DNA of 64,000 bases from a bacterium (GTDB lineage Bacteria > Desulfobacterota > Desulfocorpusculales > Desulfocorpusculum), in assembly GCA_037481695.1 (NCBI GenBank), contig JBBFLE010000011.1, positions 62,001-126,000 of the forward strand. Direction: 5' to 3'. The notes under the pieces were generated by a model. That model did no database searches. It had not been told where the DNA came from and saw only the letters and a list, made by a program, of their open reading frames with translations. Below are positions 50,716-59,486 of the stretch, piece by piece (the first letter of the stretch is position 1; each line of letters begins with the position of its first letter). A program made the position numbers and the translations under genes.

Positions 50716-52407
50716 TCACTGCCTTGCCAATCTGGCCAGGATGTATTCAGGCGTCATGGGAAGCCCATCGTACCTGGAGACTTGCATGGGAAACTTAAAG
50801 CCTGTCTCTCTTCGGATCAATCTGGCCAGCTGGCCTGTGGCATTTCCCTCCACGCAAACGGTGGTCTTTGCTTGTTTGAGCCTCTCCAAGAATTGTGCAT
50901 CCACCAGAGGCCAAACCTGGGAGAAGTGAAGAACCGAAGTTTTACGGCCAGCCCGGCTCAACAAAGAAGCAGCCTCCTGAAGTGCCCCCTTGGTGGATCC
51001 CCAGCCCACCAACAGCAATTCCGGATCCTGGGGACCCGAGAAGCTGGGAGGTACCACTTCCTGGGCCAGGCCCTGGTATTTACGAAGTCTTTTTTCCACC
51101 ATCTTGGGCCTTAGGCTCAAGTCCTCTGTGATGTGGCCCTTTTCAGTGTGCTCGTGGCTGTCGGCCACCACCAGGTGCCTTGAAACACCCGGGAGCAGCC
51201 TCGGGGAGACCCCTGAGGGAGTAATGGCATAACGGGCGTATCCTCCCTCGGGGATCGCCCCAGGTTCCTCCCCTGGTAACACACAATCCAGGTCTTCCAC
51301 TTCAAAGGGCTCCACATCTCTGTACGAGTCTGCCAGAAAATGATCTGTGAGTATGAAAACAGGCCCCTGGTATTTCTCGGCCAGTTCCACAGCCTTTCTG
51401 GTGAGGTGAAAACATTCCTCTATGCTGCCAGGGGCAAAAACCGCCCTGGGGAATTCTCCGTGTCCTGCATGGAGCACAAATTCCAGATCTGCCTGCTCGG
51501 TCCTGGTGGCCAGGCCGGTGGCCGGACCAGGTCTTTGCCCTATGAGTATGACCACTGGGGTCTCGCTTACTGCTGCCAGACTCACCGCCTCCACCATCAA
51601 TGCGAATCCCCCTCCCGAGGTGGGGACCAAGCTTGGTAGGCCTGCAAAAGAGGCCCCTATGGCCATGTTTATGGCTGCTATCTCGTCCTCGGCTTGTTCC
51701 ACTATTATGGACATTTCCTTGGACCACTGGACCAGGGTCATGGCCACAGAGGTGGAGGGACTCATGGGGTAGTAAGCGCAAAAACGGACTCCTGCGGAGA
51801 TGGCCCCAAGTCCAACAGCCTCGTGGCCGTTCAAGACTATTCTGGGCACAGCCTGGGCGCCGGGGCTGGGTACCTCCAGCTCTGTGCAATGTTCTTTGCT
51901 CCACCTATAGGCCGAGGAAAGAACCCTTCGGTTTGCCTCTGCTAAACTGGCCTTGCCTTTGCCCAGTATTTGCTCCAAAGCCCCTGCCAGGACTTCCTCC
52001 CTAATCCTCAGCAGGGCCCCTGCCACTCCCATGGCAACCGTGTTGGCAAAGCCATTTCCGCTGAGGCTCTTGTAAGGTGCTCTTACAGCAGAGATGCCCT
52101 CAGGGATTTCCCAGGCCTCATCGGCCAGAGCCTGACCACCAGGGGCCATCTCTTGGCGGTGCAGAAAAAGGGTCTCCCCGTTGAGGGCCACCAGCAAATC
52201 CACCTTTTCTGTTGGCGCCAGGACCTCCTTGGCTCCAAATCTTATGGCAAACACATTGTGGCCGCCCCTTACCCTTGATTCATAGGTCTGGGTCACATGG
52301 ATTCTATAGCCTGATCTGACCAAAGCTCTGCTAAAGGCTTCCCCCACTGTCTGAAGCCCCTGACCAGCTTCACCACCTATGAGGACGTTGAAGTCCAGAA
52401 ATTCCAT
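50716..52407 (-). CDS. korA: 2-oxoacid:ferredoxin oxidoreductase, fused gamma-alpha subunit
   Basis: 563 residues. The gamma domain (about 1-185) begins with NVLIGGEAGQGLQTVGEAFS; the alpha domain (about 195-563) has GAISAGVRFCAYYPMSPSTS, PTSGGGFALMVEAVSLAAVSE and VCVEGNATGQLARLIR. ATG 52407 has AGGAGA eight bases upstream; it overlaps the DUF2400 gene by 38 nt and so is translationally coupled to it. korB follows 21 nt later. Confidence 0.92.
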   Translation of the reverse strand: MEFLDFNVLIGGEAGQGLQTVGEAFSRALVRSGYRIHVTQTYESRVRGGHNVFAIRFGAKEVLAPTEKVDLLVALNGETLFLHRQEMAPGGQALADEAWEIPEGISAVRAPYKSLSGNGFANTVAMGVAGALLRIREEVLAGALEQILGKGKASLAEANRRVLSSAYRWSKEHCTELEVPSPGAQAVPRIVLNGHEAVGLGAISAGVRFCAYYPMSPSTSVAMTLVQWSKEMSIIVEQAEDEIAAINMAIGASFAGLPSLVPTSGGGFALMVEAVSLAAVSETPVVILIGQRPGPATGLATRTEQADLEFVLHAGHGEFPRAVFAPGSIEECFHLTRKAVELAEKYQGPVFILTDHFLADSYRDVEPFEVEDLDCVLPGEEPGAIPEGGYARYAITPSGVSPRLLPGVSRHLVVADSHEHTEKGHITEDLSLRPKMVEKRLRKYQGLAQEVVPPSFSGPQDPELLLVGWGSTKGALQEAASLLSRAGRKTSVLHFSQVWPLVDAQFLERLKQAKTTVCVEGNATGQLARLIRRETGFKFPMQVSRYDGLPMTPEYILARLARQ

Positions 52408-53260
52408 CCACAAATCTCCTTTCTCTCCAGAAGCTTTCGGCCTGTCCCCAGATACCAGGACGGGTCAAAGCAAAATCGTACTTGACAGGATCCTCTGGGC
52501 AAACACGCCTGAAACCATCTGTGATCTCCAAGGCAGCCGCCAGATCAGGCTGCCTTCTTGTTGTGAAGCCCAAGATCATGCCCACCCGGTGCATGTGCAC
52601 ATCCAGAGGCACTATGAGCTGGGATGGATCCACCCCTTGCCAACCACCAGGGTCCACTTCGTCTTGCCTGACCATCCACCTAAGGTACAGATGAAGTCTC
52701 TTGCAGCAGCTCCCGCCCCAAGGCGAGGAAAGTACCTGAGAGGCCAAGCCCCTTGAGGCACAGTTCAGTTGAGCCATCCACCCGCAAAGGGCAGGAATTG
52801 TGCTGCTGTGCCCATGGGATATGCGCATGCTGAAACATTCACCCAGGGAACCCTCTTGTCTTATGATCCTGCCAACTCCCCACAGAAATGCTGCCAGTTT
52901 CTCACCGCTGGTAAACCTGTGTTTAAATCCTGACAGGAGAAGCTTTAGATCCCTTTCTCTGGAGTCAAGGATGAGCTGCCTGGGTGAAGGTCCCAAGAGC
53001 TGGAGCACATGGCTCACATTTCTTAAGATCTGTGCCACTCTCCCATAGGCCAAGGAGGCTGCCACCAGGCCTGCCACTTCCCGATCCAGAGGATTGGCGT
53101 AATCATAAAGGAACTCCAGGGGATCAGGATGAACAAACTCCCTGCGGTTGATTCGGCAATATAGCTCTTCCAGGAAGACTCTTAGGGATTCATCCCTTGT
53201 GGAGATACCTCCAGCTTCTGAATGCCTGCTACAGAGCTTTCTGGCCAAGCAGGGCTTCAT
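52370..53260 (-). CDS. TIGR02757/DUF2400 family protein
   Basis: 296 residues. DPLEFLYDYANPLDREVAGLVAASLAYGRV and LDVHMHRVGMILGF with DPVKYDFALTRPGI are hallmarks of this family of unknown function; the LDVHMHR segment resembles HhH-GPD DNA glycosylase-like folds. It begins 3 nt after the hcpR stop and overlaps korA, so it lies in the middle of a coupled set. Its relation to redox genes is unexplained. Confidence 0.8.
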   Translation of the reverse strand: MKPCLARKLCSRHSEAGGISTRDESLRVFLEELYCRINRREFVHPDPLEFLYDYANPLDREVAGLVAASLAYGRVAQILRNVSHVLQLLGPSPRQLILDSRERDLKLLLSGFKHRFTSGEKLAAFLWGVGRIIRQEGSLGECFSMRISHGHSSTIPALCGWMAQLNCASRGLASQVLSSPWGGSCCKRLHLYLRWMVRQDEVDPGGWQGVDPSQLIVPLDVHMHRVGMILGFTTRRQPDLAAALEITDGFRRVCPEDPVKYDFALTRPGIWGQAESFWRERRFVDGISGLQRPHRW

Positions 53261-53263
53261 GTC

Positions 53264-53956
53264 TCAGGACAGCCTCCTTAAGCCTTGAGCCAGCTCTTGG
53301 AGACCTCTATGGTCCAGGATGCGGAAGCCTCTGGTGCCATTTAATTGGATCAGTTCTTCTGCAGCCATCCTGGCCAATATCCTGGAGAGGGTCTCGGGTA
53401 TTGTGCCCAAGAGGCTAGCCAACTGAGCCTTGGGGATCTCCAGGCTAAAGGAATTGCCTTTGCCGCCTATGGAACTCTCCTTTTCCAGAAGGTAGGCCGC
53501 CAGCCTGCCGGGAACTTCCTTCAAGGATAGATCCTCTATGAGCCTGGTGAACTTGCGAAGCCTCTTGGACAAGACCCCAAGCATTTTCAAGGCCACCGAA
53601 GGATCCCTTCGGATCATCTCCACAAGGGAGTCTTTGGGAAAAAAAAGAAGTCTGCTTTTCTCCATGGCCTGAGCCCCGGCCGGAAAACTCTCTTCTGAGA
53701 AGACCGCCACCTCCCCCAAAGGCTCCCCAGGGCCCAAGATATGCAGGATCTGCTCCTTGCCTTCAGAAGAGAGCTTGAATACCTTTACCCTCCCACTTAG
53801 CACCAGGTAAAAACCAGCGCAATCTTCCCCTTCGGAAAAGATCAACTGCCCTTTCTCAAAGACCTGTTCCAGGGCTGCCAGGGCCATCTGTTCAAGGTGC
53901 TCTCTGGAGAGCCCCTGAAAAAGTGGGGTCGAGGCTATGTGGTGAACCATGTCCAT
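53264..53956 (-). CDS. hcpR: Crp/Fnr-family regulator, HcpR-like
   Basis: 230 residues: cyclic-nucleotide-binding fold (about 10-130, LFQGLSREHLEQMA, GEPLGEVAVF) and a C-terminal winged helix (KAQLASLLGTIPETLSRILA). The recognition helix has E-T-L-S-R, the ExxSR pattern of FNR that reads TTGA half-sites. Matching TTGA-N6-TCAA palindromes lie at 53969-53982 and before hcp at 56062-56075. HcpR regulators control hcp in anaerobic bacteria. No N-terminal FNR cysteines are present. Start ATG 53956; a 140-residue upstream extension is non-conserved. A palindrome 13 bp before the start suggests autoregulation. Confidence 0.85.
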   Translation of the reverse strand: MDMVHHIASTPLFQGLSREHLEQMALAALEQVFEKGQLIFSEGEDCAGFYLVLSGRVKVFKLSSEGKEQILHILGPGEPLGEVAVFSEESFPAGAQAMEKSRLLFFPKDSLVEMIRRDPSVALKMLGVLSKRLRKFTRLIEDLSLKEVPGRLAAYLLEKESSIGGKGNSFSLEIPKAQLASLLGTIPETLSRILARMAAEELIQLNGTRGFRILDHRGLQELAQGLRRLS

Positions 53957-53968
53957 GGGAGAGCTTTC

Positions 53969-53982
53969 TTGATCTACGTCAA
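53969..53982. promoter_or_regulatory. HcpR/FNR-type binding site in the divergent hcpR region
   Basis: TTGATCTACGTCAA, two TTGA half-sites spaced by 6 bp. On the other strand it reads TTGACGTAGATCAA, one base different from the hcp site. Its centre is about 41 bp before the predicted start of the rightward siroheme gene, whose -10 is TATGAT at 54004-54009. Confidence 0.8.
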
Positions 53983-54003
53983 GGTCTTTCTTGGGCCATC
54001 TCT

Positions 54004-54009
54004 TATGAT
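54004..54009 (+). promoter_or_regulatory. -10 element of the siroheme-reductase operon
   Basis: TATGAT, starting 22 bp after the HcpR-type site ends. There is no good -35, as expected for an activator-dependent promoter. A leader of about 28 nt follows. Confidence 0.6.
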
Positions 54010-54043
54010 GAATATAACATCCTGTTTCCAAGGAGGCCAAGCC

Positions 54044-54847
54044 ATGAAATGGAGTCCCCAGGCAGAGCAAGCCGTGCAGAAGGTGCCCTTTTTTGTACGC
54101 AAGAGGGTTCGCAGGCGAGTAGAGGAATATGCCTTCCAGGAAGGGGCATCGCAGGTGGAGCTGGAGCACGTGCTGGCCTGTCAGAGAAGGTTTCTGGAGC
54201 GGATGGAAGAGGAGGTCAGGGGCTACCAGGTGGAAACCTGCTTTGGTCCCACAGGCTGCCCCAATAGGGCAGTAGTGGCAGAAGACATGGCTTCCAAGCT
54301 GGAAAGGCTCTTGCAAGACAAGGGTATCAGGGAATTCCTGGCCCGAAAGGTGGGTGGCCCCTTGAAGCTGCATCACGAGTTCAGGATCTCCCTGTCCGAT
54401 TGCCCCAATTCCTGCTCAAGACCCCAAATAGCCGACGTGGGGCTTGTGGGCTGCACAAAGCCCCTGGTCTCACTCACGGCATGTGAGGGATGTCAGGCTT
54501 GCGTGCAAGTCTGTAAAGAACAGGCCATTCAACTAGACTCCAGGGGCCCTGTCTTGGATCCCCATGGATGTCTTGGCTGCGGACAGTGCATCAAGGCATG
54601 TCCCAGTGGTACCCTGCAGGAGGGCCCCACGGGATACAGGATCCTGGTGGGTGGAAAACTGGGCAGACATCCAAGGCTTGCCACCGAGGTCCCAGGGGTT
54701 CACCCTGTAGGGGGAATCCCGCAAATGGTGGAGAGGATAGTGGATCTCTATATGAAAGAGTCCCGAGGAGGAGAGAGATTGGGAGAGATAGTGGAGAGGA
54801 AAGGTTGGCAGGGATTTCTGGATGAGCTTTTGAAAGGGCAAGTGTGA
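54044..54847 (+). CDS. Siroheme/4Fe-4S reductase-like protein with dicluster ferredoxin domain
   Basis: 267 residues from ATG 54044 after AAGGAGG. The N-terminal about 45 residues (VPFFVRKRVRRRVEEYAFQE) resemble the PCP_red domain. Siroheme-4Fe-4S ligands are C66-x5-C72 (CFGPTGC) and C120-x3-C124 (CPNSC); two ferredoxin clusters are CEGCQACVQVC (147-157) and CLGCGQCIKAC (176-186). It matches short anaerobic sulfite-reductase C-like proteins. Substrate sulfite, nitrite or another N-oxide is unresolved; regulation by the HcpR-type site favours nitrogen oxides. Confidence 0.82.
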   Translation: MKWSPQAEQAVQKVPFFVRKRVRRRVEEYAFQEGASQVELEHVLACQRRFLERMEEEVRGYQVETCFGPTGCPNRAVVAEDMASKLERLLQDKGIREFLARKVGGPLKLHHEFRISLSDCPNSCSRPQIADVGLVGCTKPLVSLTACEGCQACVQVCKEQAIQLDSRGPVLDPHGCLGCGQCIKACPSGTLQEGPTGYRILVGGKLGRHPRLATEVPGVHPVGGIPQMVERIVDLYMKESRGGERLGEIVERKGWQGFLDELLKGQV

Positions 54848-54965
54848 CAGAACAACAATAATCTTGCTCATTGTGTGCCTGTTGGGAAACTGTGGCCTGA
54901 GGGCTCTGGGTGTGGTGCAGGGGTGCAAGAGCGCTGGGGGGCCAGAAAAACAGGGAGGTTTAGCC

Positions 54966-55853
54966 ATGGATCGTTACATGAAGGCCTTTGTGATAATGTC
55001 CATGTCATATCTTGTGGCCGGGGCGGTCTTGGGACTTGCCCTGCTTTGGGACATCTCTTCTCTCCAGCTTAGGTTCGCACATGTGCATTTGAACCTCTTG
55101 GGTTTCATGGCCATGATGATCTTTGGCGTTGGATATTTCATCTTGCCTAGATTCAGCGGCAGGAACCTGAGGTGGCCGAGGCTTGTGGCAGTGCACTTCT
55201 GGAGCTCCAATGTGAGCCTGGTGGGCATGGTGGTTTTCTATTCTGTATGGCCCACAGGGTGGCTTGCCTGTTCTGTGGTTCAAGCCATGTCCACAGCTCT
55301 TTTTCTTGTGAATGTAGGTGTTTCTGTGACAGCCTCCTCCAAAGATGAGCTGTTTGAAAAGAAGCCGCAGTCCCAAGGTCCCGTGATATGGAGTGGGGCC
55401 AAGGTGGCTGATCTGGTGGAAAGATGGCCTCAGGTGAGAAATATCCTGGTCGCCAGAGGGATCAAGGCTCTGGAGGATCCAGGACACCTGGAGCATGTGA
55501 GAAAGCTTGGTGTGAGCCTGGGCATGTTGGCCAGACGACATGCTCTGGATGAGGCCGAGCTTCTCAGCGCCATAGCCACCGCAGTTGGAGGCCGGCTGGA
55601 ATCCACTGGCTCAGGCACGAAAGACAAGCCCATAGGTAAGGACAGCATCATAAAAGAGGTGATAAGAGATTACCCGGCCACAGAAGAGGTCTTCAGGAAG
55701 TTCTATGGTGAGGGTTGTTTCTCGTGTCCAGGACAGGCCTTTGAGACCATAGCCCAGAGCGCCATGATGCATAACGTAGAGCTAGATAAGATCCTGATGG
55801 AGCTTAACCAGGCGGCCACAGAGGCCAGAGGAGGGCCAACCGAGGGGGTGTAA
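54966..55853 (+). CDS. Four-helix heme-oxidase-like membrane domain fused to two DUF1858 domains
   Basis: 295 residues from ATG 54966 (GGGAGG upstream). Residues 1-122 contain four transmembrane helices with His at 39, 41 and 77; FAHVHLNLLGFMAMMIFGVG (38-57) resembles the N-terminal part of NorB/cbb3 subunit I and NnrS proteins, a heme-binding pattern. A first DUF1858-like domain spans about 140-205; the second (about 223-284) has the redox pair CFSC at 251-254 as in the hybrid-cluster-protein-associated disulfide domain. A membrane NO sensor or electron-transfer role is an inference. Confidence 0.75.
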   Translation: MDRYMKAFVIMSMSYLVAGAVLGLALLWDISSLQLRFAHVHLNLLGFMAMMIFGVGYFILPRFSGRNLRWPRLVAVHFWSSNVSLVGMVVFYSVWPTGWLACSVVQAMSTALFLVNVGVSVTASSKDELFEKKPQSQGPVIWSGAKVADLVERWPQVRNILVARGIKALEDPGHLEHVRKLGVSLGMLARRHALDEAELLSAIATAVGGRLESTGSGTKDKPIGKDSIIKEVIRDYPATEEVFRKFYGEGCFSCPGQAFETIAQSAMMHNVELDKILMELNQAATEARGGPTEGV

Positions 55854-55897
55854 ATTTCACCTGGGGGCTAAGATCAAAAAACACGGGAGGTGTGGCC

Positions 55898-56035
55898 ATG
55901 GCAGGGAAAGAGGAAGAAAAGAAATGTTCCATGTGCGGGGCAAGCGAGCTGGAAACGGTGCTCTTACAGGCACGCAAGCAGGGAAGTCTCTTTTGGGTTT
56001 GTGTGAGGTGCCTTCCCATTCTGATCCACGGGTAG
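55898..56035 (+). CDS. 45-residue zinc-ribbon protein
   Basis: Starts at ATG 55898 with CGGGAGG eight bases upstream and ends TAG 56033-56035. Two CxxC pairs (CSMC, CVRC) spaced by about 25 residues indicate one zinc or iron site. The short leader helix is Lys/Glu-rich. It follows the membrane protein gene by 44 nt and precedes the hcp control region. Too small for most gene finders; the family is unknown to me. Confidence 0.75.
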   Translation: MAGKEEEKKCSMCGASELETVLLQARKQGSLFWVCVRCLPILIHG

Positions 56036-56061
56036 GCCCCCAGAAACTAATTTTTCTTAGC

Positions 56062-56103
56062 TTGACGTAGGTCAAGGCTGTAAGAGACTCTGTGGTTTAG
56101 GAT
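56062..56103 (+). promoter_or_regulatory. HcpR/FNR-type site and -10 element of hcp
   Basis: TTGACGTAGGTCAA (56062-56075), then 22 bp, then TAGGAT (56098-56103). The geometry matches the promoter at 53969-54009 to within one base. No consensus -35, so activator-dependent initiation near 56110 is expected. Confidence 0.75.
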
Positions 56104-56194: not shown

Positions 56195-57853
56195 ATGAAG
56201 GTTGCTCAGGCTACAGAGAAGATGGAAATGTTCTGTTACCAGTGCGAGCAGACGGCAAAAGGAGAGGGCTGCACAAGAATGGGAGTCTGCGGCAAGGACT
56301 CGGATGTGGCTGCTCTGCAAGATCTTCTGGTTTATGCCCTACAGGGACTCTCACAGGTGGCTACTCAGGCGCGCAAGTTGGCAGTAGTGGATCCAGAAGT
56401 AAATGGCTTTACGGTGGAGGCGCTCTTTTCCACATTGACCAACGTGGATTTTGACCCAGAGAGGTTTCCTGTTTTACTGGAGCGCTGTATCTCATTGAGG
56501 GAAGGGCTGAAGGCAAAGCTTAGGGCCGCTGGCCAAGAGATTCAACTGGGAGGTCCTGCCGAGTTGGAGTTGGCCCAGGGGCTAGAAGGCTTAGCGGAGC
56601 AAGGCAGGGACCTGGAGCTGCTTTATGGAGAACAGGAGGATCCAGACATCCGATCCCTCAAGCACACGACCCTCTTCGGCATCAAGGGAGTGGCGGCCTA
56701 TGCGGACCACGCCCGCATCTTGGGCAAGGAGGATGATCAGGTCTATGCTTATATCCATGAAACTCTGGCCGCAATGCCCAGAAATGATTTGACATTGAGC
56801 GACTGGCTAGATATGAGCCTCAAGTGCGGGGCAACAAATCTAAGGGCCATGGAACTGTTGGATGAAGGCAACACAAGCACCTACGGGCATCCTGTGCCCA
56901 CCAAAGTGCCATTGGGAGTCAAGAAAGGCAAGGCGATCCTGGTCTCTGGCCACGATCTCAAGGACCTGGAGGAGGTTCTCAAACAAAGTGAGGGCAAGGG
57001 GATCTACGTTTATACCCATGGGGAGATGCTGCCCACCCATGGCTATCCTGGGCTCAAGAAGTATTCTCACTTCTACGGGCATTATGGAACGGCCTGGCAA
57101 AACCAGCAGAAGGAGTTTGAGTCTTTTCCTGGGGCCATTCTCATGACCACCAACTGCATACAGAAGCCCAGGGACTCTTACAAGGCCAACATCTTCACCA
57201 GTGGACTGGTGGGATGGCCGGGTGTGGTTCACATCCAAGGAAGGGACTTCGGCCCTCTGATTCAAAGGGCTCTGGAGCTCCCAGGTTTTGATCAGGACCT
57301 GGAAAAAGACCACGTGATGGTGGGCTTTGGAAGAAATGCTGTCATGGGTGTGGCGCAGCAGGTCATAGATGCCGTTAAGTCAGGGGCCATAAAGCATTTC
57401 TTCCTGGTAGGTGGATGCGACGGGGCAAAACCCGGAAGGAGTTACTACAGCGAGTTCGTGGAGAAAGTCCCCAAAGATTGCGTGATTCTTACACTGGCCT
57501 GCGGAAAATTTCGATTCTTCGACAAGAAGCTTGGGGATATAGGTGGAATCCCCAGATTGCTGGATGTGGGACAGTGTAACGATGCTTACTCGGCCATACA
57601 AATAGCAATGGCCCTCTCCCAGGCCTTCAACGTGGGTGTGAACCAGTTGCCTCTGAGCCTGATTCTGTCCTGGTATGAGCAAAAGGCCGTGGCCATTTTG
57701 CTGACCTTGCTCCACCTGGGCATCAAGAACATCAGACTAGGGCCCAGCCTGCCGGCTTTCATAAGCCCAGGGGTGCTCCAGGTTTTGGTTAAGAACTTCG
57801 AAATAAAACCAATAACCACCCCAGAGGAGGACTTAAAGGCCATCCTGGGGTAA
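56195..57853 (+). CDS. hcp: Hybrid cluster protein (hydroxylamine reductase / NO detoxification)
   Basis: 552 residues from ATG 56195 after GGAGGAAG. N-terminal cluster motif CYQCEQTAKGEGC followed by GVC (C-x2-C-x8-C-x5-C) as in Desulfovibrio-type Hcp. Hybrid-cluster ligands are in HGEMLPTHGYPGLKKY, TTNCIQKP, VGGCDGAKPGRSYY and CGKFRFFDKKLG. The enzyme reduces NO and hydroxylamine in anaerobes. It has no adjacent hcr-type reductase; ferredoxin-like proteins downstream are candidate donors. Confidence 0.97.
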   Translation: MKVAQATEKMEMFCYQCEQTAKGEGCTRMGVCGKDSDVAALQDLLVYALQGLSQVATQARKLAVVDPEVNGFTVEALFSTLTNVDFDPERFPVLLERCISLREGLKAKLRAAGQEIQLGGPAELELAQGLEGLAEQGRDLELLYGEQEDPDIRSLKHTTLFGIKGVAAYADHARILGKEDDQVYAYIHETLAAMPRNDLTLSDWLDMSLKCGATNLRAMELLDEGNTSTYGHPVPTKVPLGVKKGKAILVSGHDLKDLEEVLKQSEGKGIYVYTHGEMLPTHGYPGLKKYSHFYGHYGTAWQNQQKEFESFPGAILMTTNCIQKPRDSYKANIFTSGLVGWPGVVHIQGRDFGPLIQRALELPGFDQDLEKDHVMVGFGRNAVMGVAQQVIDAVKSGAIKHFFLVGGCDGAKPGRSYYSEFVEKVPKDCVILTLACGKFRFFDKKLGDIGGIPRLLDVGQCNDAYSAIQIAMALSQAFNVGVNQLPLSLILSWYEQKAVAILLTLLHLGIKNIRLGPSLPAFISPGVLQVLVKNFEIKPITTPEEDLKAILG

Positions 57854-57921: not shown

Positions 57922-58665
57922 ATGAAGTGCCCGGGTCAGGACAGCCGATATTGGAGGCCAGGGGCGGTCTTTGAGGTGGACTGCCCCCAATGCGGCTCCC
58001 CGGTGGAGTTCTTCAAGGACGAGACCAAGAGAAAATGCAGGACGTGCGGCCACAGCCTGGTGAACCCTAAGATGGATTTCGGCTGTGCTGCCCACTGCAA
58101 GTTTGCGGCCCAGTGTTTGGGTGAATTACCTCCCGAGTTGGTGGCCCAAAGGGGTGAACTCCTCAAGGACAGGGTGGCCCTGGAGATGAAACGTTATTTC
58201 GGGCAGGACTTCAAGAGGATAGCCCATGCCACCAAGGTGGCCAGGTATGCTGACCAAATAGGCAGGCAGGAGGGGGCGGACATGGCGGTGGTGTTGGTGG
58301 CCGCCTATCTTCACGACATAGGCATCAGAGACGCCGAGCGGATTCACGGCTTCACATCACCGAGGCTTCAGCACAAGCTAGGACCCCCTGCAGCCAGGCA
58401 GATCCTGGAGCGCATGGGAGCCGGGGAAGGCCTTGTGGAGGAGGTCTGTGACATAATCGCACATCACCATCACCCCAGGAAGGAGGAGACCCTTAATTTC
58501 AAATGTCTTTACGACGCGGATCTCCTGGTAAATCTGGAAGAAGAGCTGCGGCGGGGTGTGGGAAGAAAAAAGGAGAGCCTGGAACGTATCATAGACAAAG
58601 CATTTCTTACACAGCAAGGAAAAAAGATGGCCAGGGAGTCCTTGTTGCAGGAAAACAGCCATTAA
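57922..58665 (+). CDS. HD-domain phosphohydrolase with N-terminal zinc ribbon
   Basis: 247 residues. Residues 20-45 carry CPQCGSPVEF and CRTCGHSL (zinc ribbon), with further Cys in FGCAAHCKFAAQC. The HD domain (about 93-230) has HATKVARYADQIG, AYLHDIG (HD) and DIIAHHHHP. HD proteins hydrolyse nucleotide or phosphate esters; the substrate is unknown. It follows hcp after 68 nt that include a hairpin. Confidence 0.85.
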   Translation: MKCPGQDSRYWRPGAVFEVDCPQCGSPVEFFKDETKRKCRTCGHSLVNPKMDFGCAAHCKFAAQCLGELPPELVAQRGELLKDRVALEMKRYFGQDFKRIAHATKVARYADQIGRQEGADMAVVLVAAYLHDIGIRDAERIHGFTSPRLQHKLGPPAARQILERMGAGEGLVEEVCDIIAHHHHPRKEETLNFKCLYDADLLVNLEEELRRGVGRKKESLERIIDKAFLTQQGKKMARESLLQENSH

Positions 58666-58736: not shown

Positions 58737-59486
58737 ATGAAGGTAAAGAGAAAGATAGTGCAAATAAACGAGGAGCTCTGTGACGGCTGTGGCATTTGCG
58801 TGCCGGCCTGTGCCGAAGGAGCCATACAGGTGGTGGAAGGAAAGGCCAGGCTCATGGCCGAGCGCTACTGCGATGGGCTGGGGGCTTGTCTGGGGGAGTG
58901 CCCCAGGGGAGCCTTGCAAGTGGTGGAACGGGAAGCCGAGGAGTTCGATGAAGAGGCCGTGGAGGAGCATCTGAGGGAGCTAAAGGCCAGCCCAGAGAAG
59001 GCCATGGCCTGTGGATGCCCCTCTTCTCAGGTCCAGAGCTTTGAGGTTCAAGGATCCTGCCAGCAGGCCAATGAACCCTCTCAAAGGCGTTCCCCGGTGG
59101 GCTCTGGCCTCAGCCATTGGCCGATTCAGATCCGCCTCGTCCCTCCCAGCGCCCCGTTTCTAAAGGGTGCGGATCTCTTGGTAGTGGCCGACTGCACGGC
59201 TGTGGCCTATCCAGAACTTCATCAGGATTTTCTGCAGGGCAGGGTTGTGCTCATGGGGTGTCCTAAGTTTGACGACGGCTCGCTTTATGTGGAGCGTTTC
59301 AGGGAGATATTCGAGAAGGCAGGTATCAAGAGTGTGACTGTCTTGACCATGGAGGTGCCTTGCTGCCAGGGGCTTCCAATGATGGTTAAAAAGGGCATGG
59401 AACTGGCTGGGAAAAGAATTCCTTTGGAGCAGGTGGTGGTAAGCACCAGAGGGGAAATACTTAGAAGAGCCAGCTCAGTTGCCTGA
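58737..59486 (+). CDS. 4Fe-4S protein with C-terminal Cys-containing domain
   Basis: 249 residues from ATG 58737 after AGGAGGCAGACAG. The first 60 residues form a two-cluster ferredoxin module (CDGCGICVPAC and CDGLGACLGEC). A linker contains CGCPSS. The C-terminal domain (about 140-249) includes LLVVADCTAVAYPELH, LMGCPKFDD and VPCCQGLP, repeated Cys that could bind a further cluster. Likely an electron carrier or metallocentre protein for the hcp set; the exact role is unknown. Confidence 0.78.
   Translation: MKVKRKIVQINEELCDGCGICVPACAEGAIQVVEGKARLMAERYCDGLGACLGECPRGALQVVEREAEEFDEEAVEEHLRELKASPEKAMACGCPSSQVQSFEVQGSCQQANEPSQRRSPVGSGLSHWPIQIRLVPPSAPFLKGADLLVVADCTAVAYPELHQDFLQGRVVLMGCPKFDDGSLYVERFREIFEKAGIKSVTVLTMEVPCCQGLPMMVKKGMELAGKRIPLEQVVVSTRGEILRRASSVA

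Follow-up and report, generated by a model that had tools for sequence, protein, structure and literature searches.

A predicted HcpR regulon with class II operator geometry in a Desulfocorpusculum genome

Background

In the window analysed here, a stretch of 64 kb of DNA from a bacterium of the genus Desulfocorpusculum (Desulfobacterota), two nearly identical palindromes of the FNR type are present, one in the divergent region between a Crp/Fnr-family regulator gene and a siroheme-reductase gene, and the other upstream of hcp, the gene of the hybrid cluster protein. The locus thereby raises the question of which protein reads these two sites, and whether the operons behind them are activated or repressed. 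In fact, regulons of this kind have been described by comparative genomics for a regulator named HcpR. In Desulfotalea and Desulfuromonas, hcp and frdX were predicted to be preceded by a TTGAC-type motif. In Desulfovibrio, HcpR sites were predicted in front of an operon for a putative sulfite/nitrite reductase, and activation was predicted for hcp as well as for this Desulfovibrio operon (Rodionov 2004, PMC545781). Nitrate/nitrite reductase genes were assigned to the HcpR regulon of Geobacter (PMC545781), and nitrate and nitrite reductase genes to that of Desulfuromonas (PMC545781, PMC1274295), while norB in Synechocystis and a nar operon were added later (Rodionov 2005, PMC1274295). The delta-proteobacteria using the TTGAC motif have Ser or Pro at position 180 with Glu181 in the HcpR helix (PMC1274295).

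Results and Discussion

The two operators and the genes around them

The features of the locus, in order along the window, are as follows.

53264-53956, minus strand: hcpR, Crp/Fnr-family regulator of 230 aa with an effector domain and a Crp-type HTH
53969-53982: operator 1, TTGATCTACGTCAA, common to the divergent hcpR and siroheme-reductase genes; read directly from the sequence and conserved in the sister loci L030 and L031
54004-54009, plus strand: TATGAT, putative -10 hexamer of the siroheme-reductase promoter, 21 bp past operator 1, 5/6 matches, site centre at about -40.5
54011-54040, minus strand: likely sigma-70 promoter of hcpR, TTGGCC, 18 bp, TATATT with a preceding TG, 9/12 matches in a promoter scan
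54044-54847, plus strand: siroheme sulfite/nitrite-reductase-like protein, 267 aa, carrying PCP_red at its N terminus as well as two 4Fe-4S motifs
54966-55853, plus strand: membrane protein in which DUF1858 (the Hcp-associated redox disulfide domain) is joined to short COX1/NnrS-like helices
55898-56035, plus strand: zinc-ribbon-like protein of 45 aa, directly 5' of hcp in sister genome G001 too, 72% identity in L032
56062-56075: operator 2, TTGACGTAGGTCAA, 5' of hcp; read directly from the sequence and conserved in the sister loci L032 and L033
56098-56103, plus strand: TAGGAT, putative -10 hexamer for hcp, 22 bp past operator 2, site centre at -41.5
56195-57853, plus strand: hcp, hybrid cluster protein, 552 aa (PRK05290 4e-248, TIGR01703 7e-229)
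57922-58665, plus strand: HD-domain protein, kept downstream of hcp in relatives
58737-59486, plus strand: ferredoxin-type Fe-S protein, kept downstream of hcp and the HD gene, FrdX-like by position

An earlier note on this DNA had described two FNR-type sites that differ at one base, and direct reading bears this out, since the reverse complement of operator 2, TTGACCTACGTCAA, mismatches operator 1 at position 5 only. Its distance of 13 bp between operator 1 and hcpR needs a small correction, as we measured 12 bp from the operator end to the ATG (53956, minus strand). By pattern search, operators 1 and 2 are the only exact occurrences of TTGA-N6-TCAA in the 64-kb window, and TTGAYNNNNRTCAA has 19 copies in the 4.1 Mb of the genome compared with 5 for a reversed control pattern. 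Under a first-order Markov null model, the two intergenic stretches would contain a site by chance with probabilities of 4.8e-4 and 3.8e-4, respectively. A search for known RNA elements at the locus found none.

As for the genes, the siroheme reductase-like protein matches the Pfam families NIR_SIR (4.3e-21) and PCP_red (8.1e-15), with a sulfite_red_C match (3.3e-24) that lies under the cut-off of that family, and the membrane protein matches TIGR03980 (9.5e-17), PF08984 (9.6e-19) and COX1 (4.8e-7). This fusion is possibly a membrane partner of Hcp. The 45-residue zinc-ribbon-like protein has no protein-family match above cut-off. No second hcp gene was found in the genome.

Promoter geometry and the direction of regulation

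It had also been claimed that -10-like hexamers follow the sites at 21-22 bp and place them near -41, as for a class II activator. The hexamers are indeed there, TATGAT at 21 bp and TAGGAT at 22 bp, and the site centre is at -41.5 for the latter if the -10 hexamer is assumed to span -12 to -7. Among 59 distinct sites of relatives, all facing target operons, TANNNT starts exactly 22 bp past the site in 38, and every other spacing is found 0-9 times. Moreover, hexamers with at least 4/6 matches to TATAAT occur at 21-23 bp in 48 of the 59, compared with 9.6 (sd 2.8) in shuffles, a comparison that overstates the significance because related loci are not independent. Together with the promoters of this genome, the 22-bp spacing in the relatives supports a class II position for the operators. 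Of the two promoters, that of hcp fits the predicted geometry better, because at the siroheme-reductase gene the spacing is 21 bp and not the family-typical 22, and because in sister G001 the positions 21-23 bp past the site of this gene offer no good -10, the nearest being TATAGC at 31 bp. Nor is there a good -10 at this distance past the site of norB in G001.

The second base past the site, position -33, falls where a -35 box has its conserved G. It is G in 55 of the 59 relatives' sites, while its mirror position is C in only 13, and therefore the site is polar, pointing toward the operon that would be activated. This G is kept in all nine sites tested from the genome itself and its sisters. 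As a separate observation on the target-facing sites of the relatives, a polar GG directly past the operator marks the activated side, and it could be used to predict the direction of activation.

An opposite sign of regulation has to be considered here, in which HcpR represses the operons that it binds until NO or damage releases it; this has been proposed for Desulfovibrio desulfuricans HcpR2 (PMC5701242). Such a model exists for hcp in that species, and operator 1, being downstream of the predicted hcpR promoter, does occupy a repressing position with respect to hcpR itself. However, the fixed 22-bp spacing to the -10 and a site standing in place of the -35 box make up the geometry of an activator, and a pure repressor would need neither this spacing nor the loss of the -35 box, so we regard repression of the two operons as quite unlikely.

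For hcpR the sign is most likely negative. In the window genome operator 1 is too near the ATG to be the -35 box of hcpR, and it is because it sits downstream of the likely hcpR promoter that autorepression is predicted. In relatives with the site 20-61 bp before hcpR, a -10 starts 7-10 bp past the site in 24 of 31 loci against 11.5 (sd 2.5) in shuffles, where the relatedness of the loci again inflates the contrast, and on the hcpR side of these same relatives there is no -10 excess at 21-23 bp. The short distance means that TTGACt would be the -35 box of hcpR itself, and binding there would repress. Thus the autoregulation suggested earlier is plausible, and its sign would be repression, judging from the position of operator 1 here and from the overlap with the -35 box in many relatives.

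The regulator and its recognition helix

The hcpR product matches cNMP_binding (2.3e-25) and HTH_Crp_2 (5.2e-16) in Pfam, its best PDB relative is DNR (3dkw, 2e-26), and it is 67% and 59% identical to the orthologues of the two sister genera. Its recognition helix is GTIPETLSR, with Pro followed by Glu and Arg as the third contact, and the ExxSR helix attributed to the adjacent protein by the earlier note lies within it. With one Cys in 230 residues, the protein does not have the FNR-type Fe-S (4Fe-4S) cysteine motif. The Pro-Glu of this helix corresponds to the Ser/Pro180 and Glu181 of HcpR1-type regulators; the HcpR1-type motif wyTTGACnnnnGTCAArw is located 5' of hcp in this genome and in relatives; and the neighbourhood is of the same type, with hcp 2.2 kb from hcpR and a ferredoxin-type gene downstream, likewise in many relatives. 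The gene at 52370-53260, downstream of hcpR, is its neighbour in the two sister genera, in L045 and in L076 as well.

It could be argued that another activator of the Crp/Fnr type, a global one resembling FNR or DNR, reads the sites and that the adjacent gene is a bystander. TTGA-type half-sites are common to FNR, ANR, DNR and HcpR, and DNR is the closest solved homologue of the adjacent regulator. Against this, the only other Crp/Fnr protein with an HTH that our search found in the genome has the helix QQTVSE, without ExxSR, and the site travels with this hcpR across many genomes. We therefore consider a separate activator very unlikely, and HcpR itself remains the preferred reader of the two operators.

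Conservation among relatives

The class is represented by three genomes, that is, the present one and those of two sister genera. Both sister genera have one site of this form at the divergence of hcpR and the siroheme-reductase gene (TTGATCCAAGTCAA in L030 and TTGACCCAAGTCAA in L031) and one 5' of hcp (TTGATACAGGTCAA in L032 and TTGACCTGGATCAA in L033), with hcp located on a different contig from hcpR. A wider homologue search gave 80 loci from cultured or uncultured Desulfobacterota and Nitrospirota, and neighbours were compared at the 78 for which 200 bp or more of upstream sequence was available. The site is present in 40 of the 41 loci where hcp, siroheme-reductase or HD genes stand beside hcpR, and in 11 of the 37 without such neighbours. 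A search for TTGA-N6-TCAA before hcp in related genomes, which had been recommended as a check, comes out positive in both sister genera.

The exact site is absent from the available upstream stretch in 29 of the 80 homologues having the same helix, for a few of which this stretch is short. The idea that site-less loci carry an altered recognition helix was rejected, as 79 of 80 loci have the P-E helix and the remaining one could not be parsed. Same-helix homologues with neither an exact site in the available upstream stretch nor an adjoining hcp include L043, L046, L047, L049, L050, L054, L057, L061-L064 and similar ones.

An identical core alone is no proof of an operator pair, because TTGATCTACGTCAA has one further copy in the genome, at C1:149064, apparently within a reading frame (ADLIYVNGDSF...); it is position and conservation that provide the proof. 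We treated this third site, which is just 5' of a nucleotidyltransferase gene, as a chance occurrence. That operators 1 and 2 are chance palindromes as well, a reading which such a copy might encourage, is practically negligible and in effect refuted by the comparative data, namely the intergenic position, the two sister genera, the recurrence at comparable loci and the fixed spacing.

Candidate regulon members elsewhere in the genome

When the sites of this genome were ranked by a profile built from the relatives' sites, two operon-preceding sites outside the window scored above both window sites, and the regulon thus likely exceeds these, with at least two more candidate promoters. The site at C17:45507, TTGACTTATGTCAA, precedes a gene for a MoaD-like protein, which was named by eye since the family search gave no match, followed by a gene for a 758-residue NorB with a cytochrome c-like domain. 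In sister G001, TTGACCTAAGTCAA stands at the equivalent place before norB, and the order of MoaD-like gene and norB is kept. The strong HcpR-type site and the genes of the MoaD-like small protein and the single-chain NorB together cover C17:45507-48234 (L116, L122; sister L125). The second norB copies (L126, L127) were rejected as regulon members, as they are without a strong site.

The other site, TTGACTTAAGTCAA at C1:118134, is a perfect HcpR-type site with TAGACT 22 bp downstream. The operon after it encodes a GltD/ferredoxin protein, a Rieske protein, a cytochrome b, a multi-haem cytochrome c, a molybdenum enzyme, an Fe-S subunit and an ethylbenzene-dehydrogenase-like subunit, and the 1148-residue molybdenum enzyme has a full-length match to nitrite oxidoreductase subunit A (7b04_B, 875 bits). 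This NxrA-like operon (C1:106000-118150; L118, L123) may encode a nitrate reductase or a nitrite oxidase. The site C9:29860, also ranked above the window sites, was set aside as lying within a reading frame, and so were those at C23:41776, C1:533549 and C11:56187.

Proposed mechanism and comparison with known systems

Considering class II geometry, FNR-type core, ExxSR helix and conservation altogether, the direct activation of the siroheme-reductase operon and of hcp that had been proposed from the DNA alone gains support. We infer that 53264-53956 encodes HcpR, which would activate from both window operators as a class II factor, damp its own gene, and control the norB and NxrA-like operons too, and to this reading we give a probability of about 0.88. 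The activating signal is most likely nitric oxide, which HcpR would sense with a bound heme, a sensor chemistry suggested by distant homologues. The activated dimer would then bind TTGAY-N4-RTCAA at operators 1 and 2, centred near -41.5 and standing in for much the greater part of the -35 box, with the conserved G at -33 perhaps left for contact by sigma. Occupancy of operator 1 would turn on the unit of siroheme reductase, COX1-DUF1858 protein and zinc ribbon, and would also dampen hcpR by negative feedback; occupancy of operator 2 would turn on the unit of hcp, HD protein and ferredoxin. Elsewhere in the genome, HcpR probably also activates the MoaD-like/norB operon and the operon of GltD, Rieske, cytochrome b, cytochrome c and NxrA-like proteins.

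The locus is a new instance of the HcpR regulon described in 2004-2005, with its architecture resolved more precisely. It is the same as the HcpR1-branch regulon of delta-proteobacteria (PMC545781, PMC1274295) in having a Crp/Fnr gene beside hcp and a ferredoxin gene, the TTGAC-N4-GTCAA motif, and Pro/Ser180-Glu181. Its predicted targets also have counterparts among those assigned to HcpR before, namely hcp with its predicted activation, the putative sulfite/nitrite reductase operon of Desulfovibrio, the nitrate and nitrite reductase genes of Geobacter and Desulfuromonas, and norB of Synechocystis. It differs in that the siroheme-reductase gene and hcpR diverge; that the DUF1858-COX1 fusion, the small zinc ribbon and, as a predicted target, the NxrA-like operon are included; that the class II spacing of 22 bp and the G at -33 have been measured in many genomes; and that autorepression of hcpR is predicted. 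Pseudomonas DNR (3dkw), a heme-dependent NO sensor with a TTGAT-type site and norB as target, is the closest solved homologue, but overall similarity is low, and although one norB operon here has a strong site, the core neighbourhood of hcpR is hcp/ferredoxin and not nir/nos. HcpR of Porphyromonas gingivalis, of the HcpR2 branch, is a heme-dependent, NO-responsive activator of hcp (PMC12750200), whereas its helix (Gln181) and DNA motif differ from those found here and its sequence is distant. HcpR1 of D. desulfuricans is a heme-binding Crp/Fnr regulator of nitrogen-oxide genes which binds in front of its own gene as well, yet its site is CRP-like, TGTGA-N6-TCACA, and hcp is not under its control (PMC5701242).

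A broader generalization can be offered tentatively, and we hold it to be somewhat less than an even chance. In a large group of Desulfobacterota and Nitrospirota, a single polar operator may work both ways, as a class II site with a one-sided -33 G on the target side and as a -35 box or leader roadblock on the hcpR side, and in the deep lineage of the present genome this control may have been extended to NO reductase and to a nitrite-oxidoreductase-like nitrate-respiration operon. If this is true, the two-way operator makes HcpR a self-limiting switch.

Conclusions

Since genetics is hard in relatives of the sulfate reducers, the mechanism by which HcpR activates has long stayed speculative there, and the locus now offers a clean promoter architecture for it. 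In a poorly studied lineage, a siroheme reductase, Hcp, an NO reductase and an NxrA-like operon are tied to one predicted regulator. To judge from the DNA, the operators next to hcpR almost certainly let HcpR switch on enzymes against nitric oxide and related stress, which bears on how anaerobes survive the input of nitrate and nitrite.
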